From Caldifarciminota bacterium (GTDB lineage: Bacteria; Hydrothermota; Tepidihabitantia; SM23-42), in NCBI GenBank assembly GCA_020341755.1, contig CP070834.1:1243837-1280596 (forward strand): a stretch of 36,760 bases of DNA. The letters are read 5' to 3'. Of the stretch, positions 6,365 through 29,286 are shown one piece after another; position 1 is the first letter of the stretch; each line of letters starts with the position of its first letter. Both the position numbers and the translations under genes were made by a program. Below the pieces are notes generated by a model. The model made no database searches. It saw only the letters and a list, made by a program, of their open reading frames with translations, and was not told the origin of the DNA.

Positions 6365-7031
6365 GATTTTATCGCTTCAGAAGATCACCAAGACGTATTA
6401 CCTGCAGAGCGAGGACATCGAAGTACTGCGCGGGGTAGACCTGACGGTAAGCGAAGGGGAGTTTGTCGGAATATTCGGACCGTCAGGAAGCGGAAAATCG
6501 ACGTTATTGAATATCATCGGCAGCCTCGACAAGGCAACGAGCGGAACAGTGCGTTTTAATGGAATGAACCTTGAAGAACACGACGACACGGCACTCTCGG
6601 AAATACGGAATAAGCAGATCGGTTTTGTTTTCCAATTCCACCATCTGCTGTCCGAATTTACCTGCCTTGAAAATATCGCTCTGCCTGGACTCCTTGATTG
6701 TCCGTCACCGCGCGATGTTTACGACAGAGCCCAGCATCTGCTCGAGAAATTCGGAATGGCAGATAAGCGAAACAGGCTTCCCGAACAACTGTCCGGAGGT
6801 GAACGGCAGCGCGTTGCTATTGCGCGGGCATTGATCAATGATCCTTTGTTGATACTTGCCGATGAACCAGCAGGTAATCTCGACGATATGAACACCAATA
6901 AACTCCTCGAGGTGTTCGTGGGTCTAAATCATGATGGTAAGACGATTATCCTGGTTACACACAGTCTGGATGTTGAAAGGTTCGGTACACATGTGTATAA
7001 TTTAAGAGAAGGAAGGTTATATGCTATGTGA
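6357..7031 (+). CDS. lolD: Lipoprotein-releasing ABC transporter ATP-binding protein
   Basis: ATPase subunit that powers lipoprotein release with the preceding permease. Its 224 residues contain every expected motif: Walker [10 protein letters not shown], a Q-loop in [14 protein letters not shown] (the FQFHHLLxEFT form is typical of LolD), signature LSGGERQR, Walker B LLILADEP followed by the D-loop AGNLD, and the switch His in LVTHS. The gene overlaps the permease stop by 8 nt and mcsA by 11 nt, giving tight translational coupling. LolA and LolB are not in this window. Confidence 0.94.
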
Positions 7032-7497
7032 TGATTGCAAGAAGAATCCGGCAACGATTTTCTTTAAAGAGGTTCTACCGGAGAAGGTAGTTGAACTTCA
7101 TTTGTGCGGTTCATGTGCGCATAAGCGAGGATTGCTATTGACAAAGAAAATGTCACCGATCGAGATGCTGCAGAGATTGCTGAAGGAGAAAAGTGCTAAG
7201 GACGAACAGATTATCTGCGGGAAATGTTACCTGTCGCTTGCTGAGTTTAAACGGATTGGACGGTTCGGCTGTGTTCGATGTCTGGAAACCTTCAAGCCGT
7301 ATATTAAGAATTTAATAAAACAAATACATCACAGTGAAAAACATGTCGGGCGGCATGCCGAGCACGGTAAGCAGAAAGGATACGAGGTGTATCAGCTGCG
7401 AGAACAACTAAAAAAGGCACTTGAGAAAGAAGCCTATGAAGAAGCGGCTGCGATACGGGACAAGCTGAAAAAATTTGGGGTGGAAAGTGCTGAATAA
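7021..7497 (+). CDS. mcsA: McsA-like zinc and UVR-motif activator of the protein arginine kinase
   Basis: Predicted partner and activator of McsB. Its 158 residues contain four CxxC pairs (Cys3/6, Cys29/32, Cys66/69, Cys84/87) that should bind two zinc ions, followed by a C-terminal UVR motif (REQLKKALEKEAYEEAAAIRDKLKKF, roughly 127-152 with similar spacing to UvrB/UvrC). This matches the Firmicutes McsA architecture. AAGGAAGG lies 5 nt before the ATG. It overlaps lolD by 11 nt at the start and the proposed mcsB start by 11 nt at the end. In Bacillus this gene sits in a ctsR-mcsA-mcsB-clpC operon; neither ctsR nor clpC is adjacent here. Confidence 0.9.
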   Translation: MLCDDCKKNPATIFFKEVLPEKVVELHLCGSCAHKRGLLLTKKMSPIEMLQRLLKEKSAKDEQIICGKCYLSLAEFKRIGRFGCVRCLETFKPYIKNLIKQIHHSEKHVGRHAEHGKQKGYEVYQLREQLKKALEKEAYEEAAAIRDKLKKFGVESAE

Positions 7498-8530
7498 AAT
7501 ACGGTGGCTCGTTTCCGGCAACGGACAGCATTCAGAATATGCTGATATCGTCGTGTCCTCGCGTGTACGCATCGCGCGTAATGTGAGCCAGTTCAACTTT
7601 GACGTTAAACTGAAACCAGCAGATGCAGAGCGTCTGCTTCAGTTCCTCCGGACGACGATCGGATCATTGATCAAGGGAGAATACATTGATATCCGACAGA
7701 TATCAGCACTTGAGCGTGAGAGTCTTCTGGAGTGTCATCTTATCTCGCCTGCGTTTCTGAGGAAAGAAAAACCAACCGGTCTGTACATTTCTGAAGATGG
7801 AGATATTTCCATCATGCTCAATGAGGAGGATCATCTCAGGATACAGGCGCTTGCTGCTGGTATGAATATCCAGCAGATAGCTGATAAGATATTCAGTTTT
7901 GAAGATAGTATCGGTGCCGAGCTTGATTTTTCCTTTGATGAGACATACGGTTTTATCACATCATGTCCTACGAATCTTGGTACTGGTTTCAGGGGTTCAG
8001 TACTGCTTCATCTTCCCGGACTGGTATTTACCAATGAGGTGGAAAAAGTACTGAAAGGTGCGCTTCAGATCGGTATGGCGGTACGGGGTATTTACGGCGA
8101 AGGTTCCGAGATCAAGGGGAGTCTGTTCCAGATATCGAACCAGCACACTCTCGGGCTCAGAGAAGAGGATCTATTGCAAACTATTACAAAACTGACATCC
8201 ATGATCGTCGATATAGAAAAGAAAGCACGCGATGTGATTTTCTCGAAAGCACGTCATGAATTTGAAGATAAGATTTTCCGGAGTATCGCGATATTAAGAT
8301 CTGCCAGGATTATCAGTACCGATGAGGTGCTTAATCTGCTGTCCGCCGTCCGTTTCGGTGTCGGCACAGGCATTCTGAAAGAAGTGAACCTTGATGTCGT
8401 CAATGAGATAATGCTCGTATCCCGACCAGCGAACATACAATTATTTTATAACGAGATTCTTGAAGAACATGAACGGGACGTGAGAAGAGCTGATTTCATC
8501 AGAAGTAGATTGAGCAGGAAAACAGCATAG
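7487..8530 (+). CDS. mcsB: Protein arginine kinase (ATP:guanido phosphotransferase)
   Basis: Phosphorylates arginine residues in proteins, marking them for ClpCP degradation in the systems studied. Family features are DIVVSSRVRIARN near residue 24, the EDHLRIQAL stretch, and SCPTNLGTGFRGSVLLHLPGL, which contains the catalytic Cys. The C-terminal catalytic half includes the RSARIISTDEVLNLLSAVRFG segment. A TTG at 7475 opens the frame, but GTG at 7487 is better placed behind the G-rich GGGGTGG and gives 347 residues, close to the usual length. It ends an overlapping lolC-lolD-mcsA-mcsB run. A 73-nt gap with an unpaired T8 run follows. Confidence 0.94.
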   Translation: MLNKIRWLVSGNGQHSEYADIVVSSRVRIARNVSQFNFDVKLKPADAERLLQFLRTTIGSLIKGEYIDIRQISALERESLLECHLISPAFLRKEKPTGLYISEDGDISIMLNEEDHLRIQALAAGMNIQQIADKIFSFEDSIGAELDFSFDETYGFITSCPTNLGTGFRGSVLLHLPGLVFTNEVEKVLKGALQIGMAVRGIYGEGSEIKGSLFQISNQHTLGLREEDLLQTITKLTSMIVDIEKKARDVIFSKARHEFEDKIFRSIAILRSARIISTDEVLNLLSAVRFGVGTGILKEVNLDVVNEIMLVSRPANIQLFYNEILEEHERDVRRADFIRSRLSRKTA

Positions 8531-19384: not shown

Positions 19385-19806
19385 AGTGGAGCATACATCC
19401 TGCGCGCAAGCACCGCCTGAAGACGATCATAACAGGTTTTTTCATCGTCTGCTTCCTCGTATTTGTGACGGTCTTGTACGGTACCATTTTCGGTTTGCTC
19501 GGTCTTTTGATATTATTTTTCTCGTTGTATTCGTACTACTTTCCGACGCACTACGAGGCGACCGAGAACGCCATTATCATAAAAAACGTGTTTATGACCC
19601 AACGCAGAGAGCTATCCGAGTTCAAGCGGGTATACCGGGGCAAGAATGGAATCCTGTTGAGTCCCTTCCGGAGAAAGACATTTTTGAACCACTTCCGCGG
19701 TGTCTTCTTGCTCCTGCCGGAAAAAAGGGATGAAATAACAGCCTTTTTAGAAGAACGTATTGCCGCACTCCAACCTCAAGAAAGCAAATCATCTGACAAT
19801 GGGTAA
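19381..19806 (+). CDS. Small membrane protein with PH-like (YcxB-type) tail
   Basis: 141 residues: a short basic N-terminus (MKWSIHPARKHRLK), two closely spaced transmembrane helices at ~14-34 and ~36-54 (GFFIVCFLVFVTVLYGTIFGLLGLLILFFSLYSYYF), then a soluble domain of ~80 residues (HYEATENAIIIKNVFMTQRRELSEFKRVYRGKNGILLSPF) typical of bacterial PH-like domains that follow two helices in YcxB/YdbS-type proteins. AGGA lies 8 nt before the ATG. The stop overlaps the start of the DHH gene (ATGGGTAA), so the two are coupled. Function unknown. Confidence 0.75.
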   Translation: MKWSIHPARKHRLKTIITGFFIVCFLVFVTVLYGTIFGLLGLLILFFSLYSYYFPTHYEATENAIIIKNVFMTQRRELSEFKRVYRGKNGILLSPFRRKTFLNHFRGVFLLLPEKRDEITAFLEERIAALQPQESKSSDNG

Positions 19807-21307
19807 TATGGGCAAGACCGCACGACTCGATAAAATGCTCGTGCAGCGGTACACTGCCGACTTTTCCATCCCCCAGGAACTTGCGCAGATCATCGCATCG
19901 AGGTTTCCGGTGTATACCGATGCACAGGCATATTTATTCCCGGAATTAAGCACGCTTCATGATCCTGGATTACTTCCGGATATAGAAAAGGCAGCAGACC
20001 GCATCGTGCGTGCTGTGCATGATGGCACGGGGATACTCGTATACTGCCACGACGACGTCGATGGCTACACTTCTGGTGTGATCATGTACACGACCCTCAA
20101 GGATATAATGAGGAAACGTGCCCAGCCGCTATTTCTGTACCCGGTCATCAGGGAAAAAGATGGTTATATTCTGAATCCGAGAGTCTTGCAGGAATACCGT
20201 TCAAAGGGTGCGCGGATCATCATTACCGTCGATTTCGGTGTAAGCAGCAACGAGAATTTCGAGATTGCAAGAGAACAGGACATGGAACTGATCGTATGCG
20301 ACCATCACGAGGTGAAGGCAGATGCGTTTACCGTCCCTGTGGTGGATCCAAAAAGACCCGCATCGTCTTATCCGTTCCGGGATCTGGCCGGTGTCGGTGT
20401 GACGTTAAAACTCGCTCAGTTCTTGTACAGATCTTCACTGGGGTTAGGCACCGATGAATTTTTCAACGTAAAAAAAGAATTCATCGCATTGTCTATGCTC
20501 GGTACCGTTGCTGACCGCGTCATACTTACAGACGAGAATCGGGTTCTGTGCAGACATGGTTTGGACATGATCAATCAGCTTGATGTTCCGTGGGCCAGGT
20601 ATTTCAGGGCCAACGGAGAGATCGATACGGCGACGGTTATACAGATGATCATACCAACAATATCATCAGCGGCATACTGTGATCCCATGTACGGTGTCAG
20701 GGTTTTTCTGAACAGCGACATGGCATATATCTGTGATGCATTCACGAAACTCAGGAACGTGACCGATGAACGCAGGAAGGGTGTCGCGATATTTTTCGAA
20801 GATGTGATATCTGCAGCACGGGTATATCCTGACGTTGTCATATCGGTCGTACCGGTCGTCCGTCAGCATTATCTCGGGTCGGTCGCCGGATGGCTCAGGG
20901 ACCGGTACCAACGGACGGCAGTGGTTATCGGGATTAGAGATGGACGGTGCATCGGTGAATTGCGCAGTCACCGGCTTAACCTGTACGAAATGCTGCACAG
21001 CATGGGTGATTTGTTCTCTGATTACGGTGGTCACCAAAGAGCAGCCGGTTTCACAATGGCCCATCAGCACCTGGATGAACTGGCAGATAGAATTCTTCGC
21101 TACGTAACGGAAAATACGCATGAAACGAAGGAAAAAACACGTGAACCTGTTTTTCTCCTTGCACGAACGAACGTTGACATGCTCAAACGGATGATGCCGT
21201 TTGGCGAGGGCAATTCCGCACCATTATTGACAGATGGTTCGCTCGTCTATACAATAGACAATAAGCTGAATATCGTGGAAAAGGGCAGTTTCGATAGCAA
21301 ATATTAA
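19799..21307 (+). CDS. DHH-family phosphoesterase, RecJ-like
   Basis: About 502 residues from ATG 19799; the frame also contains an upstream ATG at 19760 that lies inside the previous gene. DHH-domain motifs are present: H84-D-D-V-D88-G (motif I), TVDFGVSS (Asp145, motif II), CDHHEV (Asp168-His169-His170, motif III) and DLAGVGVTLKLAQ (motif IV). A DHHA1-type YGGHQRAAGFTM lies near residue 410. The order matches RecJ 5'-3' single-strand exonuclease, but at ~500 residues it is shorter than RecJ (typically 550-580) and its motif I reads HDDVDG rather than the usual DYDADG. It could instead be a relative acting on short RNAs or nucleotides. It overlaps the proposed mglA start by 14 nt. Confidence 0.85.
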   Translation: MGNMGKTARLDKMLVQRYTADFSIPQELAQIIASRFPVYTDAQAYLFPELSTLHDPGLLPDIEKAADRIVRAVHDGTGILVYCHDDVDGYTSGVIMYTTLKDIMRKRAQPLFLYPVIREKDGYILNPRVLQEYRSKGARIIITVDFGVSSNENFEIAREQDMELIVCDHHEVKADAFTVPVVDPKRPASSYPFRDLAGVGVTLKLAQFLYRSSLGLGTDEFFNVKKEFIALSMLGTVADRVILTDENRVLCRHGLDMINQLDVPWARYFRANGEIDTATVIQMIIPTISSAAYCDPMYGVRVFLNSDMAYICDAFTKLRNVTDERRKGVAIFFEDVISAARVYPDVVISVVPVVRQHYLGSVAGWLRDRYQRTAVVIGIRDGRCIGELRSHRLNLYEMLHSMGDLFSDYGGHQRAAGFTMAHQHLDELADRILRYVTENTHETKEKTREPVFLLARTNVDMLKRMMPFGEGNSAPLLTDGSLVYTIDNKLNIVEKGSFDSKY

Positions 21308-21890
21308 CTACGCTGAAAAAGAATTGAACCTGAAAATCGTATACTACGGTACAGGACTATGCGGCAAGACCACAAACCTCCGAATGGTTTACGGCGCCAT
21401 GAATCCTGAACGTCGAGGGAAAATGATGAGTCTGGCCACGGAACTCGATCAAACGCTATTCTTCGATTTTCTACCGGTCGATCTGGGGAGCATAAAGGGT
21501 TGGAAACTGCGCCATCATCTGTATACGGTGCCCGGACAAATATACTATAATGTTTCCCGGAAATTGGTATTGAAAAACGTTGATGGTATCGTTTTTGTAG
21601 TAGATTCGCAAGAAGAACGCCTGGAAGAGAACCTGGAGAGTTACAATAATCTCCAGGATAATCTTCAGAGTTATGGTCTGTCGCTGAAGAGTATACCGCT
21701 TGTCATGCAGTATAACAAGCGTGACCTGCCCAATATCATGCCGATCAGCGATCTCCAGTCTCATATCAATAAGGCAGGATATGAGTATTTTGAGAGCGTG
21801 GCGATCCGTGGTATTGGTGTTTTTGATACGTTGAAAACTATTTGTCGTCTTACCGTACATAAACACGCAGACGAACTGCCCCAGGGATAA
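21294..21890 (+). CDS. mglA: MglA-type small GTPase, probable ATA start
   Basis: A Ras-like GTPase of the MglA polarity family, about 198 residues. Motifs: P-loop GTGLCGKT (~19-26), TVPGQIYYNVSRK (~78-90) with the MglA-type PGQ, and NKRDLP (~141-146). MglA of Myxococcus cycles at cell poles with its GAP MglB. The first ATG/GTG/TTG in frame is TTG at 21324, but the 10 codons before it read IANINYAEKE, matching the conserved MglA start M-x-F-I-N-Y-x-x-x-E. AAGGG at 21281-21285 stands 8 nt before ATA 21294, and no canonical start exists between the stop at 21267 and the TTG. The gene overlaps the DHH gene. mglB follows 78 nt later with its own promoter. Confidence 0.92.
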   Translation: MANINYAEKELNLKIVYYGTGLCGKTTNLRMVYGAMNPERRGKMMSLATELDQTLFFDFLPVDLGSIKGWKLRHHLYTVPGQIYYNVSRKLVLKNVDGIVFVVDSQEERLEENLESYNNLQDNLQSYGLSLKSIPLVMQYNKRDLPNIMPISDLQSHINKAGYEYFESVAIRGIGVFDTLKTICRLTVHKHADELPQG

Positions 21891-21968: not shown

Positions 21969-22376
21969 ATGGCTGATCGGCAAACCCTGAGCATTTCAAA
22001 GGAAAGCATCGATAAACTGACCTATTTATTGGGCGATTTCTGTACTCAGGCAAACACGGTGTGGGCGATATTTGTAACGATATCCGGACAACTTTTAGTA
22101 CAACGCGGGTTTGTGCGTTCCTATGATGTCCTGGCGATCTCAGCGCTGGCATGCGGGGTATACAATTCGACAATGGAACTTGCCCACATCGTCGGTGAAC
22201 GAAAATTCAGTCAGTTCCTCCAGGAAGGCAAGCGTTTTAGTGTCTACTATATTGGCGTGGAGCGGGACTATTTACTCGTTTCGCTCTTTGATGATCGTAC
22301 ACTACCAGGAGTCGTTAAAGTTGCGAGTGAGGTTTTCTCCCAGAAGGCAAAGTCAGTAGTGGGTAATGGAAGATGA
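21969..22376 (+). CDS. mglB: Roadblock/LC7-domain protein, probable MglB
   Basis: 135 residues forming one Roadblock/LC7 domain: an N-terminal helix (SKESIDKLTYLLGDFC), strands AIFVTISGQLLVQRGF, the helix DVLAISALACGVYNSTMELAHIVG, and strands RFSVYYIGVERDYLLVSLFDD. MglB homodimers act as GTPase-activating protein for MglA. The adjacent MglA gene supports this, although the domain alone would also fit other Roadblock regulators. It has its own promoter separate from mglA. Its TGA overlaps the ATG of the DnaA-like gene (ATGA), so the two are translationally coupled, an unusual pairing. Confidence 0.88.
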   Translation: MADRQTLSISKESIDKLTYLLGDFCTQANTVWAIFVTISGQLLVQRGFVRSYDVLAISALACGVYNSTMELAHIVGERKFSQFLQEGKRFSVYYIGVERDYLLVSLFDDRTLPGVVKVASEVFSQKAKSVVGNGR

Positions 22377-24505
22377 AGCGAGAGCTTACCTTTGATAATT
22401 TTTTCGTATACGAAGGTAACCAGGTTGCCTTTCTTGCTGCAAAGAAAATCGTAGATTTCCCAGGTGAATTATTCAATCCCTTGTACATCTATAGCAATAC
22501 GGGCTTGGGTAAGACTCATTTGCTCTGGGCGCTGTTCAGTGAATTGAACAAAAAGTCAACTATGCTGTTTTTTTCTGCGAAGGAATTCGAGGGATATCTC
22601 GATAAAGCAAAGGTGTTTAATACACCGATCGTCGTTGATGATATCCATATGGTCTCGAGTACATACCAGGAAAAGATACTGGGTATAGTCGATACATTCC
22701 TAGCAAATAATAGGCAGATCTGTTTCTCGGGAAGTACGGCACCAAGGGAATTAAAGAATTTTGAACCGAAATTGATATCACGGATAGAGGGAGGCCTTGT
22801 TTGCGACATTGCCCCGCCGAAAGAAATGGCGCTTATCGACATGATCAAGAAAAAATCCGGGGAAGCGGGGATACTCCTTCCCGATGAGATTGCCCTTGAA
22901 CTGGCTCAGATCTCAACCGGTTCTATCCGCACTATTGAGGGTATGATCAACCGGCTGATCGCGTACTCGTCGCTGGGTAATGTCTCGCTTGATGTTGACA
23001 GCGCGCGAATGATATTAAAGGAGTTCTATCCCAAGGGTATCTACAGCCCGGTATCGTCTCTGCTCGAGGAGTTGAAAAAGAATGCGAGTGAAATACTCGA
23101 GGATGTGTCGGAAAAAATGGATGTTCGGGAGGAGTACAAGGAGAAGATTTATATATGGGAGATGAAAGGATTCGATACATCCTCGCTCAGTGTTCTGCTC
23201 GATGGAGATGTCGATGTGCTGAAATCCGAATACGATAAATTCATCGAGAAGGTCGGGCGGCTCATTGATTTGCAGAAAGCATTCGGTGCCCTGGACACGA
23301 GCTCGTGCATAGAGGATGCCATGAAGGTCGAGTCTATGTTGTTTTCACCGGATCATCTTGAGGAAATAGAACAGCTCATAGCCCGTATCAAGCAGGGTGG
23401 CGAAGAACCTGATAAAACAAAATCGTTCGATACGTTGATCATCGGTGAAGGTAACAAAAAAGCGTATGAAATATATCAGGGGCAGGTGGTTTCGTCACTC
23501 GGTGAGAAATACAACCCGTTCATCATCTTCGGTGGTACCGGTAGGGGGAAGACACGGTTTCTCGAAGCCATTCGCAACGACCTTCTATCACGGAAGAGGA
23601 ACGTAAAACTAATTGATTTAGAGACGAGTGAAGGCGTACCGCAAAAAGGATTATTGAGTACGTGTGACGCGCTCCTGATCGACAATTTCCACCTTGTGTT
23701 TTCATATCCGCAGGAAAAACGACAAGCACTGATCGATCGCCTTCTTGAACTGGTAAACGAGAAAAAGGCGATAATCGTCAGCAGTGAGATATTTTCATCG
23801 GCAGTCGCTTTTAGTGATCAAGAAAGGCTTTTTTTCGAATACGGGATCGAAGCCGAACTATCAGCACCGGATAGTAATATGGCGAGGATGTATATTTCCT
23901 CGCGCCTGCCCGCCGATACTTCGAATATGATCCTGCGCAGTGATTTCCCGCCGTTCAAATCGTTTAGCGAAGTAGACCAGTTCGTCGACGACGTTCAGAA
24001 GGGAGTAACCACTATCGAGGTAAAGGTAGGAGAAGTAGAAGAAGAGGTGGAAGAAAAACCACAAGAGGTTACCGCCGAAGTCCCTGTGGATGTTGTTCCA
24101 CTAGGCCTGGAGGGAGAAGAACAACTGATTGAAGGCGCTGTACAGGCCGAGCCGGTGGTCGAAGGTGATACACATGCTGAGCCGGTGGTCGAAGCACCGA
24201 AATCTGATGACCTCGTGCCGCTTGGGCTGGAAGGTGAGGTAGCGCCACAACCCGCAGTCCGGGTACCCGATGCTGCTGCGTCATCAGTGCCTGCAGAAGA
24301 AGAACAGATAAAGGTAGAGGATACATCTGAAGATGCTGAAATACACGTTAAGGAGGATGAGTCGTCTCCGGTACCCGAAGTGGCAGAACAAATCCCGACA
24401 GGTGTACGAACATCAGTACTAGAGACGGAATTTCTTGAGGAACGCCGGCAAGAGCGGTTTATCATAACGGACATACTGGGCGAATTGCTGGAGGATAATT
24501 ACTGA
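22373..24505 (+). CDS. Tandem DnaA-like AAA+ protein with acidic tail, no DnaA DNA-binding domain
   Basis: 710 residues in three parts. Residues 1-215 are a full DnaA domain III: LTFDNFFVYEGN, Walker A SNTGLGKT (41-48), Walker B VVDD (87-90), sensor 1 FSGST, the arginine finger in LISRIEGGL (Arg137), CDIAPP, and sensor 2 SIRTIEGMINRLIAY (Arg186). Residues ~221-345 are a charged helical linker in place of DnaA domain IV. Residues ~351-515 are a second DnaA/Hda-like module with Walker A GGTGRGKT (387-394) and Walker B LLIDN (434-438), but no arginine-finger box. Residues ~545-685 are an acidic, proline-rich tail with duplicated VPLGLEGE and AEPVVE words, ending in a conserved-looking IITDILGELLEDNY. 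It is coupled to mglB. Probably an ATP-dependent oligomeric switch in signalling rather than a replication initiator; this is inference. Confidence 0.88.
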   Translation: MKRELTFDNFFVYEGNQVAFLAAKKIVDFPGELFNPLYIYSNTGLGKTHLLWALFSELNKKSTMLFFSAKEFEGYLDKAKVFNTPIVVDDIHMVSSTYQEKILGIVDTFLANNRQICFSGSTAPRELKNFEPKLISRIEGGLVCDIAPPKEMALIDMIKKKSGEAGILLPDEIALELAQISTGSIRTIEGMINRLIAYSSLGNVSLDVDSARMILKEFYPKGIYSPVSSLLEELKKNASEILEDVSEKMDVREEYKEKIYIWEMKGFDTSSLSVLLDGDVDVLKSEYDKFIEKVGRLIDLQKAFGALDTSSCIEDAMKVESMLFSPDHLEEIEQLIARIKQGGEEPDKTKSFDTLIIGEGNKKAYEIYQGQVVSSLGEKYNPFIIFGGTGRGKTRFLEAIRNDLLSRKRNVKLIDLETSEGVPQKGLLSTCDALLIDNFHLVFSYPQEKRQALIDRLLELVNEKKAIIVSSEIFSSAVAFSDQERLFFEYGIEAELSAPDSNMARMYISSRLPADTSNMILRSDFPPFKSFSEVDQFVDDVQKGVTTIEVKVGEVEEEVEEKPQEVTAEVPVDVVPLGLEGEEQLIEGAVQAEPVVEGDTHAEPVVEAPKSDDLVPLGLEGEVAPQPAVRVPDAAASSVPAEEEQIKVEDTSEDAEIHVKEDESSPVPEVAEQIPTGVRTSVLETEFLEERRQERFIITDILGELLEDNY

Positions 24506-24545: not shown

Positions 24546-26135
24546 ATGGCAATAAAAGGTTCCCTGGCAGAAGCATCCTTACCTGATGTGATCCAGCTAC
24601 TGAGCTATTCGGGTAAGTCAGGGTGCCTGAGCGTTACTGACGGCCGTAACTTTGGTAATATCTTCATAAAGGACGGTAAGGTGGTCTTTGCCACCATACT
24701 AAACAGAAAACAGAAACTCGGTGACATTTTGTTGACGAAACAGCTCATCGACAAGGAAACACTCACCAAGGCGCTGGAAATGCGTAAAAATTCGAAGAAC
24801 AAAAGGCTCGGTGAGATCATGATCGAGATGGGTGCACTCAGCCGGGACGTTCTCGACAGAGAACTCCGCGCTCAAATAGAGCAGACTATTTTCACCATGC
24901 TTACCTGGGAGACCGGTTACTTCAATTTCGAAGCGGACCTGCTGCCCCTGGCAGAGGATTATACGCTGCAATTGTCGGCGCAAGAGCTTTTGCTCGAAGG
25001 CGCACGCAGGATCGATGAATGGAAAAAAATTGAGAATAAGATACCACCTTTCGAGACCGTTCTGATACGTAATGAAGACGTGCAGAGCATACCATTGACA
25101 CAAGAAGAGGAAAAGATCATGGAACTCGTTGACGGCGTGCGCACGATCGATGATATACTGAAGCTCTCCGAATCTGATTTTTTTGCTACATGCCGGACCG
25201 TGTATGGGCTGCTGTCAGCCGGTCTCCTCATGAAACCGGAGAAACCACTCGCGAGCAGGCGTGTTTCCGGTGATGTTTCTGAATATAAAAACCTCGGGTT
25301 TGCTTTTTACAAAACAGAAATGTACGATGAGGCCGAAAGGGAATACAAAAAGATCCTCGACATTGACGGGACCGATCCGGAGGCTTTTTTCTATTTGGGT
25401 TTGATCGAACTGATGCGCGGCGACATGAAAGCAGCGCGGGAACAACTGGTACGGTCAGCTGAAAAAGAAAAGCGTGCCTCGGTTCTTACAAACGCCGGCT
25501 ACGTCTGTATCAAGATGGAATGTTACGACGAGGCGATCGCGTATCTTCAAACAGCACGCGAACTGATGCCGGATAATCTCAAGATGAAGTGTAACCTGGC
25601 TATTGCACTATTTAAAAAAGGTAATCATGATGAGGCAGAAGTATTGCTGCGTGAAGTGATCAAAGAATCACCTGCAACAATCACTCCGTACATGTACCTG
25701 CCAATGATCTTAGTGGAAAGGAAGAATTTCGAGGATGCTGCACAGACATTGCAGGAAGCTATTGACCACTTCCCCCGAATGACTGCGTTCAAGAACAACC
25801 TGGCCGTGTTGTATGAAAGCATGGACAGACCGGAGGACGCCGAGAAACTCTACCGACAAGCACTCGAGGTGGATCCGCATAACAAGAAAATATGCAAAAA
25901 CCTCGCCGATTTTTATTATAAGACGCAGATACTTGGTGCGGCGCGGGAATTATTCGAGAAGATTGCAGATGCATACAATGACTGGCAGATATTCTTCAAA
26001 CTCGGGAACATCCATCTCCGTCAGGGCGATAAGGAGAAAGCATTAGAATACTGGTACAAAGCCAGTGAATTAAATCCGTCAGAACAATTGATCGCGAGAA
26101 ATATCGAAGTACTCACTAAATCTGGTGGAAAATAG
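24546..26135 (+). CDS. PATAN (DUF4388) domain protein with TPR repeats
   Basis: 529 residues. The N-terminal PATAN/DUF4388 domain begins IKGSLAEASLPDVIQLLSYSGKSGCLSV and runs to about residue 60. A GspE-N-like helical part (LGDILLTKQLIDKETLTKALEMR ... FTMLTWETGYFNFEADL) follows to about 150, then a winged-helix-like piece (~185-230, MELVDGVRTIDDILKLSESDFFATCRTVYGLLSAGLL). From about 245 to the end there are eight or so TPR units. PATAN proteins are tied to MglA/Roadblock and two-component signalling in several phyla, so this is a likely scaffold between the GTPase pair and the Che enzymes. It begins 40 nt after the AAA+ gene and overlaps cheR by 11 nt. Confidence 0.88.
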   Translation: MAIKGSLAEASLPDVIQLLSYSGKSGCLSVTDGRNFGNIFIKDGKVVFATILNRKQKLGDILLTKQLIDKETLTKALEMRKNSKNKRLGEIMIEMGALSRDVLDRELRAQIEQTIFTMLTWETGYFNFEADLLPLAEDYTLQLSAQELLLEGARRIDEWKKIENKIPPFETVLIRNEDVQSIPLTQEEEKIMELVDGVRTIDDILKLSESDFFATCRTVYGLLSAGLLMKPEKPLASRRVSGDVSEYKNLGFAFYKTEMYDEAEREYKKILDIDGTDPEAFFYLGLIELMRGDMKAAREQLVRSAEKEKRASVLTNAGYVCIKMECYDEAIAYLQTARELMPDNLKMKCNLAIALFKKGNHDEAEVLLREVIKESPATITPYMYLPMILVERKNFEDAAQTLQEAIDHFPRMTAFKNNLAVLYESMDRPEDAEKLYRQALEVDPHNKKICKNLADFYYKTQILGAARELFEKIADAYNDWQIFFKLGNIHLRQGDKEKALEYWYKASELNPSEQLIARNIEVLTKSGGK

Positions 26136-26931
26136 TTTCGAACATCTCATTGACTACATAGAGAAGCACACTTCATTCAGATGCCAGAATTACAAAGTAC
26201 GACCGCTGAGGCGGCGTATCAAAGTACGCATGCGTGCCCTGGAAATCGAAAGTTACAATACCTACTGGCGCTATTTACAGAACCATCCCTCCGAACTGAA
26301 AAAATTACAGGATATCTTAACCATAAACCTATCCTACTTTTTCAGAAATACAGAGACATTCGATTTTTTAAGTACCGAGATATTTCCCGAGTTCAGGCGT
26401 ATGAAAGGGTCCTTGACGTTCTGGAGTGCCGGATGTGCTCGAGGTGAAGAACCGTACTCGCTCGCGATACTCGCCGCAGAGCACGGTATTAAAAACCGCG
26501 TCCGGATATACGGTACCGATATAGATGATAATGCGCTGAATTCAGCCAAAGAAGGCATCTATTCATCGGTATCATTTCACTATACACCCGAGGAGATAAA
26601 GAAACGATATTTCGTTAACGCTAATAACGGCTACGCGATACGGCACGATCTGATTGGCGATGTCAAATTTATCAAGCTCGACCTTTTTGAGAAACCGATC
26701 TTCGAGCGATGCCAGCTGGTAGTATGCCGTAATGTATTGATATACCTTGACCGTCCCGGTCAATCAGCAATACTGAAGACCTTTTACGATCACATGACAA
26801 ACGGAGCGTATCTTGTGATCGGTAAGGTAGAGCTGCTCATCGGACTCCCCGAGGTGAAGCTTTTTCACCTTGTCAACCGTGCCGAGCACATTTATCGAAA
26901 ATCCGATCTGCAGGCGGAGGTGGTATCGTGA
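26125..26931 (+). CDS. cheR: CheR-type chemoreceptor methyltransferase
   Basis: Methylates glutamates of chemoreceptors with S-adenosylmethionine. 268 residues from GTG 26125. The N-terminal helical domain (FEHLIDYIEKHTSFRCQNYKVRPLRRRIKVRMRALEI) is typical, with INLSYFFRN marking the junction. The Rossmann domain has FWSAGCARGEEPYSLAIL (SAM binding, ~99-116), YGTDIDDNALNSAKEGIY and VVCRNVLIYLD. Length is normal. It overlaps the PATAN gene by 11 nt and cheD by 4 nt. No receptor, CheA or CheW is in the window, so the substrate is encoded elsewhere or is not a classical receptor. Confidence 0.94.
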   Translation: MENSFEHLIDYIEKHTSFRCQNYKVRPLRRRIKVRMRALEIESYNTYWRYLQNHPSELKKLQDILTINLSYFFRNTETFDFLSTEIFPEFRRMKGSLTFWSAGCARGEEPYSLAILAAEHGIKNRVRIYGTDIDDNALNSAKEGIYSSVSFHYTPEEIKKRYFVNANNGYAIRHDLIGDVKFIKLDLFEKPIFERCQLVVCRNVLIYLDRPGQSAILKTFYDHMTNGAYLVIGKVELLIGLPEVKLFHLVNRAEHIYRKSDLQAEVVS

Positions 26932-27392
26932 AGGAGAACGAGCTGCGGGTGGGGATAGGTGAGGTTCAGGTGAAGCAGGGGGATCAAATCCTCGTCGCTT
27001 ATGGCGTGGGGTCATGTGTTGTCATAATACTCTACGATGAAGAGAAGCGGATCGGTGGTCTTGCACACTGTTTGTTGCCGTCCGGTAACAAGAACAGTCT
27101 GAAATATCCAAAAGGAGCGATCGAAGAGATCATCCGGCAGATGTCAATATTCGGTGTCAGAAAAAATAGGATTGTCGCAAAAATAGTGGGCGGTGCGACC
27201 ATGTTCAATGGTTTCGAACGCCATGCCATCGGCAGAAGAAACATCAAAAGGGCGCGTGAGGAACTCGAAAAACACAACATCCCTGTTATCGCCGAAGACG
27301 TCTTCGGTACCTGGGGACGATCCATATTTTTCAATATTCTGAACGGAGAGGTACGTATAAATTCTTATCGTCATGGGAATAAGATATTGTGA
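26928..27392 (+). CDS. cheD: CheD-type receptor glutamine deamidase
   Basis: Deamidates receptor glutamines and, in some species, interacts with CheC. 154 residues from GTG 26928. The catalytic Cys30 (YGVGSCVVIILYD) and His47 (GGLAHCLLPSG) are in place, and the third residue is likely the Thr/Ser near VGGATMF. RRNIKRAREELEKHNIPVIAEDVFGTWGRSIFFNILNGEV is the usual C-terminal half. The GTGA overlap with cheR and a 4-nt overlap with cheB show tight coupling. No CheC is seen nearby. Confidence 0.94.
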   Translation: MKENELRVGIGEVQVKQGDQILVAYGVGSCVVIILYDEEKRIGGLAHCLLPSGNKNSLKYPKGAIEEIIRQMSIFGVRKNRIVAKIVGGATMFNGFERHAIGRRNIKRAREELEKHNIPVIAEDVFGTWGRSIFFNILNGEVRINSYRHGNKIL

Positions 27393-28411
27393 AAAGTAAA
27401 CTACTGATCGTCGAAGACTCTATCTTAATGCAGCGTGTGATCGGTGATATCGTTAGCACGTCCGAGCACTTCGAGGTTGGGGGATTTGCCCGGGATGTTG
27501 TGGAGGGGTGGGCGAAGTTCAATAAGCTAAAGCCAGATATGATAACACTGGACTATGAGTTACCTGGGGAGAATGGGCTCGTACTTCTAAAGAAGGTGAT
27601 GGAAGAGCGACCGGTCCCCGTTCTCATGCTGTCTGCGCATACCAAGGCGGGCGCGGAATTGACCATGCAGGCGTTGGAAATGGGGGCGGTCGATTTTTTC
27701 ACTAAACCCTCTGGTCCTATTTCTATCGATCTTTATAATTATAAGGATGAACTCCTCCAGAAACTAGAGGTTACTGCTTCGGCGAAGTTACCCAAGAAGA
27801 TCGTAAAAAAAGTACGCAAGCACCCGCGGATCACTTTTGAGCTGTATGTTGGTGTCGCTGCATCGACCGGCGGCGTACGCGCGCTGCATTATCTCATTCC
27901 TTCTTTGCCTGTAGAGTGCGGGCTGAGAATGGTGGTGGTACAGCATATGCCCAAGTTCTTCACAACCAGTCTTGCCGAGCACCTCAATGAGCGTTCAAGC
28001 ATGGTCGTGAAAGAGGCGCGTGACGGTGATAAGGTACTCGCCGGCGAAGTGCTCATTGCTCCGGGTGGTTGTCACTGCCGGGTCGATAAGGAAGGACGCA
28101 AGATATCTCTAACCGATGAGCCACCGCGGCATGGTGTTAGACCATCGGCAGATATTCTGTTCGAGTCGATGGCGCGTGCCTACGGGGACCATATGCTTGG
28201 TATCATACTCACCGGCATGGGAAAAGATGGTGCCGAGGGAGCAGCACGCATAAAAAATTCGAACGGCCGTGTCATTGTCCAGGACCCGCTCGATGCCGTG
28301 ATCGGTGGAATGCCGCAAGCTGCGTTGAACACAGGCAGGGTGGATTTTATGCTCCCGCTGAAAGAAATACCAGAACAGGTTATTAATTTGTTGACCGGAT
28401 GGAGAAAATGA
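27389..28411 (+). CDS. cheB: CheB-type receptor methylesterase with receiver domain
   Basis: Phosphorylation-controlled methylesterase/deamidase that opposes CheR. 340 residues from GTG 27389. The receiver domain covers 1-~120 with the phospho-acceptor Asp55 (ITLDYELP), an upstream acidic pair in IVEDS, and the switch residues MLSAHT and FFTKPSG. The catalytic domain (~150-340) has Ser159 (AASTGG), His186 (VVQHMP) and Asp280 (TGMGKDGA). All expected residues are intact, so the enzyme should be active and needs a kinase (CheA) from elsewhere. It overlaps the downstream TPR gene by 13 nt. Confidence 0.95.
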   Translation: MKSKLLIVEDSILMQRVIGDIVSTSEHFEVGGFARDVVEGWAKFNKLKPDMITLDYELPGENGLVLLKKVMEERPVPVLMLSAHTKAGAELTMQALEMGAVDFFTKPSGPISIDLYNYKDELLQKLEVTASAKLPKKIVKKVRKHPRITFELYVGVAASTGGVRALHYLIPSLPVECGLRMVVVQHMPKFFTTSLAEHLNERSSMVVKEARDGDKVLAGEVLIAPGGCHCRVDKEGRKISLTDEPPRHGVRPSADILFESMARAYGDHMLGIILTGMGKDGAEGAARIKNSNGRVIVQDPLDAVIGGMPQAALNTGRVDFMLPLKEIPEQVINLLTGWRK

Positions 28412-29286
28412 ATGATGCATTGAAATACATCGAAGAGCGTATTAAAGAGCTCGAGAAAAAAGTGAAGAAATACGATCCGAGAGAACAAAAGAGTATTCTC
28501 AAAGAGATCAAGAATCTCTATGTGGATATAGCGAATGCCCTCAGCACGCTATCCCGGGCGCAGGACAGGGTCAGAGCCATTGCGCAGGATTTCAGAAAAG
28601 CCAAGACATCCCAGACCGAGGTAAGTAAATTCTATTCATTCGTTAAATCCCAGACATCAGCCGAACTCGACCTCGCGACCCTGCTTGATAAAGCATGGAA
28701 TCTTATTGTGATGGAAGACCATGATGAGGCGATAACCGTTCTGAAGAAGGTGATCAGTATTGATCCGCAGAACATCAAGGGTATGGGTCTCATGGGTCTG
28801 GCGTTCATGAATAGACAGTTGTACGACGATGCCATGCTATATTTGCAAAGAGTTTTACTCATAGAACCGGAAAATCCCTTTGCTTTGAACAATCTGGGGT
28901 ATATATGTTATAAAAAAGGCATATGGGGTGAAGCGATCGAGCATCTGGGGCATGCGGCGCGGCAGGAAAAGGACCGCACTGCTGCACTGTATGCAAACTA
29001 CTATCTGGGGCTCGTCTATTACGAACGATCGATGATACCGGATGCGATAAAGTTCTTCGAAAAAGCCGTGAAATTGGGGCCGAATCTCCAGGAAGCATAC
29101 TACTATTTGGGTCTATCTGAGGTGAAGCGTTTTGAGTTCAAACAGGCTGTGAATTATTTCGCTCAATGCGTCGAAGTCGACCCCGAATCGAAGTATGGAA
29201 AATTGAGCAGCGAGGAGATAAAAAAGATCAAACCCCTTACCGATGCCGGAAAAACATTCGAAGATGAAGATGGTAGTCCTGCATAG
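28399..29286 (+). CDS. TPR protein with N-terminal coiled coil
   Basis: 295 residues. Residues 1-~85 are a charged coiled coil (LKYIEERIKELEKKVKKY ... ALSTLSRAQDRVRAIAQDFRKAK). From ~95 to 265 there are five TPR-like units, for example DEAITVLKKVISIDPQNIKGMGLMGLAFMNRQLYDDAMLYLQRVLLIEPENPFALNNLGYICY and PDAIKFFEKAVKLGPNLQEAYYYLGLSE. It is cytoplasmic, overlaps cheB by 13 nt and closes the Mgl/Che run. A docking role for the receptor-modifying enzymes or the AAA+ protein is plausible. Confidence 0.86.
   Translation: MEKMNDALKYIEERIKELEKKVKKYDPREQKSILKEIKNLYVDIANALSTLSRAQDRVRAIAQDFRKAKTSQTEVSKFYSFVKSQTSAELDLATLLDKAWNLIVMEDHDEAITVLKKVISIDPQNIKGMGLMGLAFMNRQLYDDAMLYLQRVLLIEPENPFALNNLGYICYKKGIWGEAIEHLGHAARQEKDRTAALYANYYLGLVYYERSMIPDAIKFFEKAVKLGPNLQEAYYYLGLSEVKRFEFKQAVNYFAQCVEVDPESKYGKLSSEEIKKIKPLTDAGKTFEDEDGSPA

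Follow-up and report, generated by a model that had tools for sequence, protein, structure and literature searches.

How does a protein with the fold of the replication initiator DnaA come to be encoded among genes for a small GTPase and for chemosensory enzymes, and what might it do there? DnaA-family AAA+ proteins are familiar from replication and its control. The window analysed here, a stretch of 36,760 nucleotides, belongs to a genome of the candidate phylum WOR-3 (single contig, 2.38 Mb). An uninterrupted open reading frame at positions 22373-24505 of its plus strand encodes a protein of 710 amino acids, which we named TDA (tandem DnaA-like AAA+ protein; the name was coined in this analysis). 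We consider it probable that TDA is a DnaA-derived AAA+ protein that left replication and became a dedicated partner of MglA and MglB, in a chemosensory module controlling type IV pili.

Two Bac_DnaA domains, both above the Pfam cut-off, are found in this single frame, and the tandem of DnaA-type modules claimed by the original prediction therefore stands. The two AAA+ modules resemble domain III of DnaA and occupy residues 1-219 (module 1; 22373-23029) and about 349-545 (module 2; 23417-24007, all on the plus strand). Between them lies a helical linker with its core at residues 251-336 (23123-23380, plus strand). In the AlphaFold2 model (20 orthologues), module 1 is predicted with confidence, the helical middle and module 2 are good, and residues after about 550 are disordered. 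The disordered tail nonetheless carries conserved short motifs. Two copies of VPLGLxGE start at residues 575 and 615 (24095-24232), and a conserved C-terminal peptide, which in the window ends with RFIITDILGELLEDNY, covers residues 692-710 (24446-24502; both on the plus strand). Tails in the window's order and class contain one to three VPLGLPGEE motifs each; 25 occurrences of VPLGLxGE were counted in 20 orthologues of this order and class, against 0.012 expected by shuffling.

Structure prediction and profile comparison, the two routes along which the original prediction proposed to check the relationship, both lead to DnaA. The top Foldseek matches of TDA are DnaA structures, and the nearest solved structure is domain III of B. 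subtilis DnaA (8bv3, target TM-score 0.81 for module 1). The closest known counterparts are the domain III structures of B. subtilis (8bv3 and 8btg), T. maritima (2z4r) and A. aeolicus (2hcb). When aligned by hhalign to 28 DnaA domain IIIs, each module reaches a probability of 100%, with E 6.6e-60 for module 1 and 1.5e-38 for module 2. Against the NCBIfam DnaA equivalog TDA scores 217.9 bits, below the cut-off of 343.9.

Module 1 shares with DnaA domain III the AAA+ fold and the Walker A and B motifs. Its Walker A is at residues 41-48; K47 aligns with K178 of E. coli DnaA, and D89/D90 of Walker B align with D235/D236. The arginine finger Arg137 and the sensor 2 Arg186, both named in the original prediction, are indeed present in the window and align with R285 and R334. 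The broader claim that module 1 keeps every domain III element does not hold. The initiator-specific (ISM) helix, carrier of the ssDNA-binding H motif, is gone, and in module 1 the ISM interval spans 22-36 residues, with a median of 26, versus 39-42 in 28 of 28 DnaAs. V211 falls into a gap in the window protein, as it does in 21 of 27 module-1 sequences, K243 has no equivalent in the alignment to E. coli DnaA, and R245 of the B-motif is replaced by T97; most orthologues, like the window protein, lack these three residues through deletion or substitution. R227 of AID-1 is absent in the window and not conserved across the family. The sensor-1 D269 became S121 in the window, with aspartate kept in four of 27 module-1 sequences. 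In E. coli, residues of the ISM region, of the H and B motifs and of the K243 and R227 type take part in ssDNA binding or in DnaA-DnaA contacts (PMC5742627, PMC5448010). TDA further differs from DnaA in having neither domain I nor domain IV, and in the addition of a second module and a new linker domain.

Conservation across the family is uneven. G46 and K47 of the module 1 Walker A are invariant in all 35 aligned family proteins, and the Walker B position Asp89 is D in 30 of them and E in five. Arginine occupies the finger position in 20 of the 35 and the sensor 2 position in 26. Both arginines are kept in the window's clade and both are lost in genus g6. Two more divergent proteins of family f11 (L143 and L144) stood outside this alignment and were aligned later. 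Since the ISM and ssDNA-binding residues are lost and the arginine finger and sensor 2 are patchy, TDA is, as far as its sequence can tell, a DnaA derivative not built to bind origin DNA. By the same reasoning from alignments, DnaA-type filaments appear not to be a conserved property of the family.

Module 2 has a Walker A at residues 387-394, as originally described, and Walker B Asp at D437. It was also said to lack the arginine finger, and F487 is found at that site; S532 stands at the sensor 2 site, so that both arginines are lost. In some orthologues its Walker A is degenerate, and at six loci (L047, L050, L098, L111, L147 and L149) the entire module is absent. The resulting proteins of 381-426 amino acids retain module 1 together with the linker and C-terminus, and their genes still reside in the operon. 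In a phylogenetic tree most module-1 sequences form a group of their own, separate from the module-2 group (support 0.56 and 0.74, respectively), with the divergent L097, L143 and L144 outside the main groups. This suggests, with modest support, that the two modules arose by an old duplication. The original prediction also envisaged a head-to-tail or capped assembly, built from one intact, filament-forming module and one deficient module in the same chain. We downgraded this mechanism because both module 2 and the arginine finger are lost in orthologues, and it is weakened further by the absence from module 1 of K243 and AID-1 R227, residues of the DnaA-DnaA interface.

Do such modules still work as a nucleotide switch? 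They might instead be protein-protein platforms, nucleotide-bound or empty, that neither run a hydrolysis cycle nor switch between oligomeric states. The sensor-1 aspartate missing from most module-1 sequences would fit this, as would the loss of the arginine finger in 15 and of sensor 2 in nine of the 35 proteins, and so would a module 2 deprived of both arginines and, in places, of a proper Walker A. Against it stand the invariant G46/K47 and the acidic residue found at position 89 in all 35 aligned proteins, and the window protein retains R137 and R186. We thus regard this explanation as unlikely and favour a partner of MglA and MglB whose module 1 would respond to ATP.

The part of TDA that selection holds most tightly seems to be the linker and not the pair of modules. 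Among 13 divergent orthologues, mean pairwise identity is 43% in the linker core versus 29% in module 1 and 21% in module 2, and the core bears the signature YxEKxYxWEMKGF...RLIELQ...E..LF.P. A model of the core by itself is compact and helical and includes one helix of 26 residues (pLDDT about 90, pTM 0.68). The core has no convincing Pfam match and no PDB sequence match, and a PDB fold search with the model gave no match with E below 2.9. With the linker profile we searched first 61 and then 147 WOR-3 genomes, where only TDA-type proteins matched with confidence; viral contigs gave no match, and in plasmids there were only DnaA-type proteins among the annotated matches listed. The original prediction held that a helical linker replaces DnaA domain IV, and that a domain IV-like helix-turn-helix within residues 221-345 would point back to replication. 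Neither Bac_DnaA_C (PF08299) nor another Pfam helix-turn-helix matched these residues, and hhalign gave a probability of 0.5% against 28 DnaA domain IVs. On these grounds, together with the missing fold match, we rejected a hidden domain IV. Its absence was thus predicted correctly, and "linker" proved too modest a word for the best-conserved domain of the family. Both sequence and model indicate a new helical domain unlike DnaA domain IV.

The operon around TDA lies on the plus strand. It includes an MglA-type small GTPase with a TVPGQ motif (21324-21890, its conserved N-terminus reaching upstream to about 21294) and an MglB-like roadblock protein (21969-22376), whose match to the NF052242 MglB profile (E 3.5e-8) is below the curated cut-off. 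The mglB stop overlaps the TDA start by 4 bp (ATGA), and it does so in relatives as well. Downstream follow a PATAN (DUF4388)-TPR protein with an MshE-like insertion (24546-26135; PF14332, E 3.5e-34), the methyltransferase CheR (26125-26931), the deamidase CheD (26928-27392), the methylesterase CheB with a receiver domain (27389-28411) and a TPR protein conserved in the operon (28399-29286). Neighbours were counted at 42 loci, which represent 13 families. TDA is immediately preceded by mglA at 14 loci and by mglB at 23 (37 of 42 in sum), mostly with a 4-bp overlap, and it is immediately followed by the PATAN-TPR gene at 41 of 42. CheR usually comes next, most often accompanied by CheD, CheB and the TPR gene. 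The operon is enlarged by CheW in family f11, and in families f28, f29, f30 and f31 by CheW and mostly also an AAA protein and a methyl-accepting chemotaxis protein (MCP). In the window genome, CheW-domain proteins and MCPs are encoded elsewhere. Genus g6 has neither mglA nor cheRDB adjoining TDA.

Several details of this region were observed along the way. The mglA frame stays open 5´ of its TTG (21324), where the conserved N-terminus is encoded (MANLN(F/Y)AKKELNLK in homologues); in place of the homologues' ATG the window has an ATA at 21294, which may reflect translation from an unusual codon, a point change or an error in sequencing. The insertion in the PATAN-TPR protein carries two MshEN-like repeats, RLGEIL...L..AL, visible in many orthologues, and it scores 44.6 bits (cut-off 38) against NF053729, an MshE-related c-di-GMP motif, which could provide an added c-di-GMP input. 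A RecJ-like DHH/DHHA1 phosphoesterase (window 19760-21307) is conserved beside mglA in the window's family. Further away, window 7021-8530 encodes what may be a protein-arginine kinase pair, here outside Firmicutes: first a McsA-like zinc-motif protein (recognized by sequence, no Pfam match) and then an ATP:guanido phosphotransferase of the McsB type (PF00217, E 7e-61).

In seven families (f11, f12, f16, f28, f29, f30 and f31), a pilT gene immediately precedes mglA-TDA or lies no more than about 3-5 kb away; these were called by TIGR01420, above its cut-off. Where pilT precedes mglA-TDA, several families (L106, L108, L146, L147 and similar loci) have it flanked by two metabolic genes, unexpected beside a motility operon, which encode a biotin carboxylase and a biotin carboxyl carrier-like protein. 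Family f1, to which the window belongs, has no pilT in the operon; two PilB-like and four PilT-family genes are found in other parts of the window genome. All 55 genomes with TDA possess pilT, and none of the 25 genomes without pilT possesses TDA. The probability of this co-occurrence is 2e-6 if genomes are taken as independent, a figure inflated by relatedness; the co-occurrence is confounded by phylogeny, and pilT is common (122 of 147 WOR-3 genomes). Because related genomes are not independent, we regard the co-occurrence as only suggestive of a link to pili and not as proof.

Known systems make such a link plausible. In Myxococcus, MglA controls type IV pili and polarity (PMC11580455), and in Synechocystis PATAN regulators bind the pilus motor PilB (PMC9090330, PMC10519157). 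Some mglA genes of groups 1 and 5 adjoin PATAN genes (PMC4316618). The TDA operon resembles the MglA/MglB polarity modules of Myxococcus, Thermus and Bdellovibrio in its MglA-type GTPase, roadblock partner and PATAN protein, and in the tie to type IV pili and chemosensory proteins. It differs from them by its DnaA-family AAA+ member, a component that the main text of the small-GTPase survey does not mention (PMC4316618). Our literature searches brought up no description of a DnaA-like protein in an MglA operon and no paper that combines MglA, PilT, DnaA and twitching.

Adjacency to PilT might be understood in another way, with TDA as a clamp-loader-like or Hda-like remodelling factor that loads or inactivates PilT or PilB, or drives nucleotide exchange on MglA. 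DnaA-family members do engage other ATPases: Hda acts on DnaA, and DnaC on DnaB. PilT adjacency in seven families and the retention of the arginine finger and sensor 2 in the window's clade would agree with such an activity. A trans-acting arginine would, however, be expected to be kept, and across the family it is present in just 20 of 35 proteins. We find this quite unlikely and prefer to see in TDA a signalling partner of MglA and MglB.

It remains to be asked whether TDA left replication at all. WOR-3 is uncultured, and the phylum is known mainly from genomes. TDA is present in 55 of 147 WOR-3 genomes, the set that our distribution figures cover (relatives bear the labels candidate division WOR-3 or Candidatus Stahlbacteria); families f5 to f10 except f8, from the same class, have pilT and no TDA. 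One genome carries a second TDA-like copy of 675 amino acids (L048, G005:C1:276537), possibly an assembly chimera or a fusion, which was left out since its frame has a masked stretch and an unrelated C-terminal sequence. The original prediction asked for a check on another dnaA, and the window genome indeed encodes a complete one elsewhere (G000:C1:516687), with DnaA_N, Bac_DnaA and Bac_DnaA_C all above cut-off.

Two other relatives of DnaA deserve comparison. Hda/HdaA shares with TDA the AAA+ fold, the descent from DnaA, the lack of domain IV and a shorter ISM region. Unlike TDA, E. coli Hda keeps both the arginine finger and the sensor-1 aspartate and has a single module; TDA, moreover, is encoded in an mglA operon. 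The profile comparison proposed at the outset left TDA at 89.6 bits, below the Hda equivalog cut-off of 194.8. DnaC/DnaI belong to the same initiator/loader clade of AAA+ proteins, and module 2 weakly matches DnaC (6qel, E 8.6e-6). TDA, in contrast, has a different architecture and no helicase-binding context, and the ISM interval of E. coli DnaC has 41 residues versus the median of 26 in module 1. It is very improbable that TDA regulates replication, be it Hda-like on DnaA or the clamp (RIDA-type) or as an alternative initiator: the clear DnaA descent of both modules (hhalign 100%) and the Hda-like loss of domain IV and shortening of the ISM region would speak for it, but the operon is mglA/mglB-PATAN-che and not replication genes, most WOR-3 genomes lack TDA, the arginine finger is poorly conserved, DNA-binding elements are missing, and the Hda score is far below cut-off.

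The original prediction placed this DnaA fold outside replication, in a signalling operon, and we support that non-replicative use because the genome has a separate dnaA, because TDA has lost domain IV along with both ssDNA-binding elements, and because the linkage with mglA/mglB and PATAN-TPR is phylum-wide. A possible mechanism, starting from the probable role as a dedicated partner of MglA and MglB, is the following. ATP binding by module 1 would cause a conformational change or weak self-association. The linker domain would serve as the central docking surface, and TDA would bind through it MglA/MglB and/or the PATAN-TPR protein in a manner gated by ATP. The disordered tail, with its VPLGLPGEE and C-terminal LIEENY-type peptides, may act as a tether for further partners. 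Module 2 would be an accessory, partly degenerate and dispensable copy that tunes or caps the assembly. Input would come from CheR, CheD and CheB and, in other families, from the CheW and MCP of the operon; output would pass to PATAN and PilT. TDA may be an effector, a scaffold or a regulator, and the pilus output would be twitching or polarity.

Taken together, TDA adds a new branch to the DnaA-related AAA+ group, distinguished by a new domain and a new context. Whether the family, marked by a helical domain that separates the two AAA+ modules or follows the single one, constitutes a new class of DnaA-derived switches, acting as ATP-dependent partners of MglA in a phylum-wide pilus chemosensory operon, is in our opinion an evenly balanced matter. 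If our assumptions are true, then a replication-initiator fold was recruited to cell polarity, and a GTP switch and an ATP switch meet in one circuit. A conserved, operon-linked branch that does not bind DNA and is associated with MglA and PilT would put the initiator fold to a new use. MglA circuits would gain a potential ATP-dependent component, and there would be a testable handle on surface motility in a phylum that we know mainly from its genomes.
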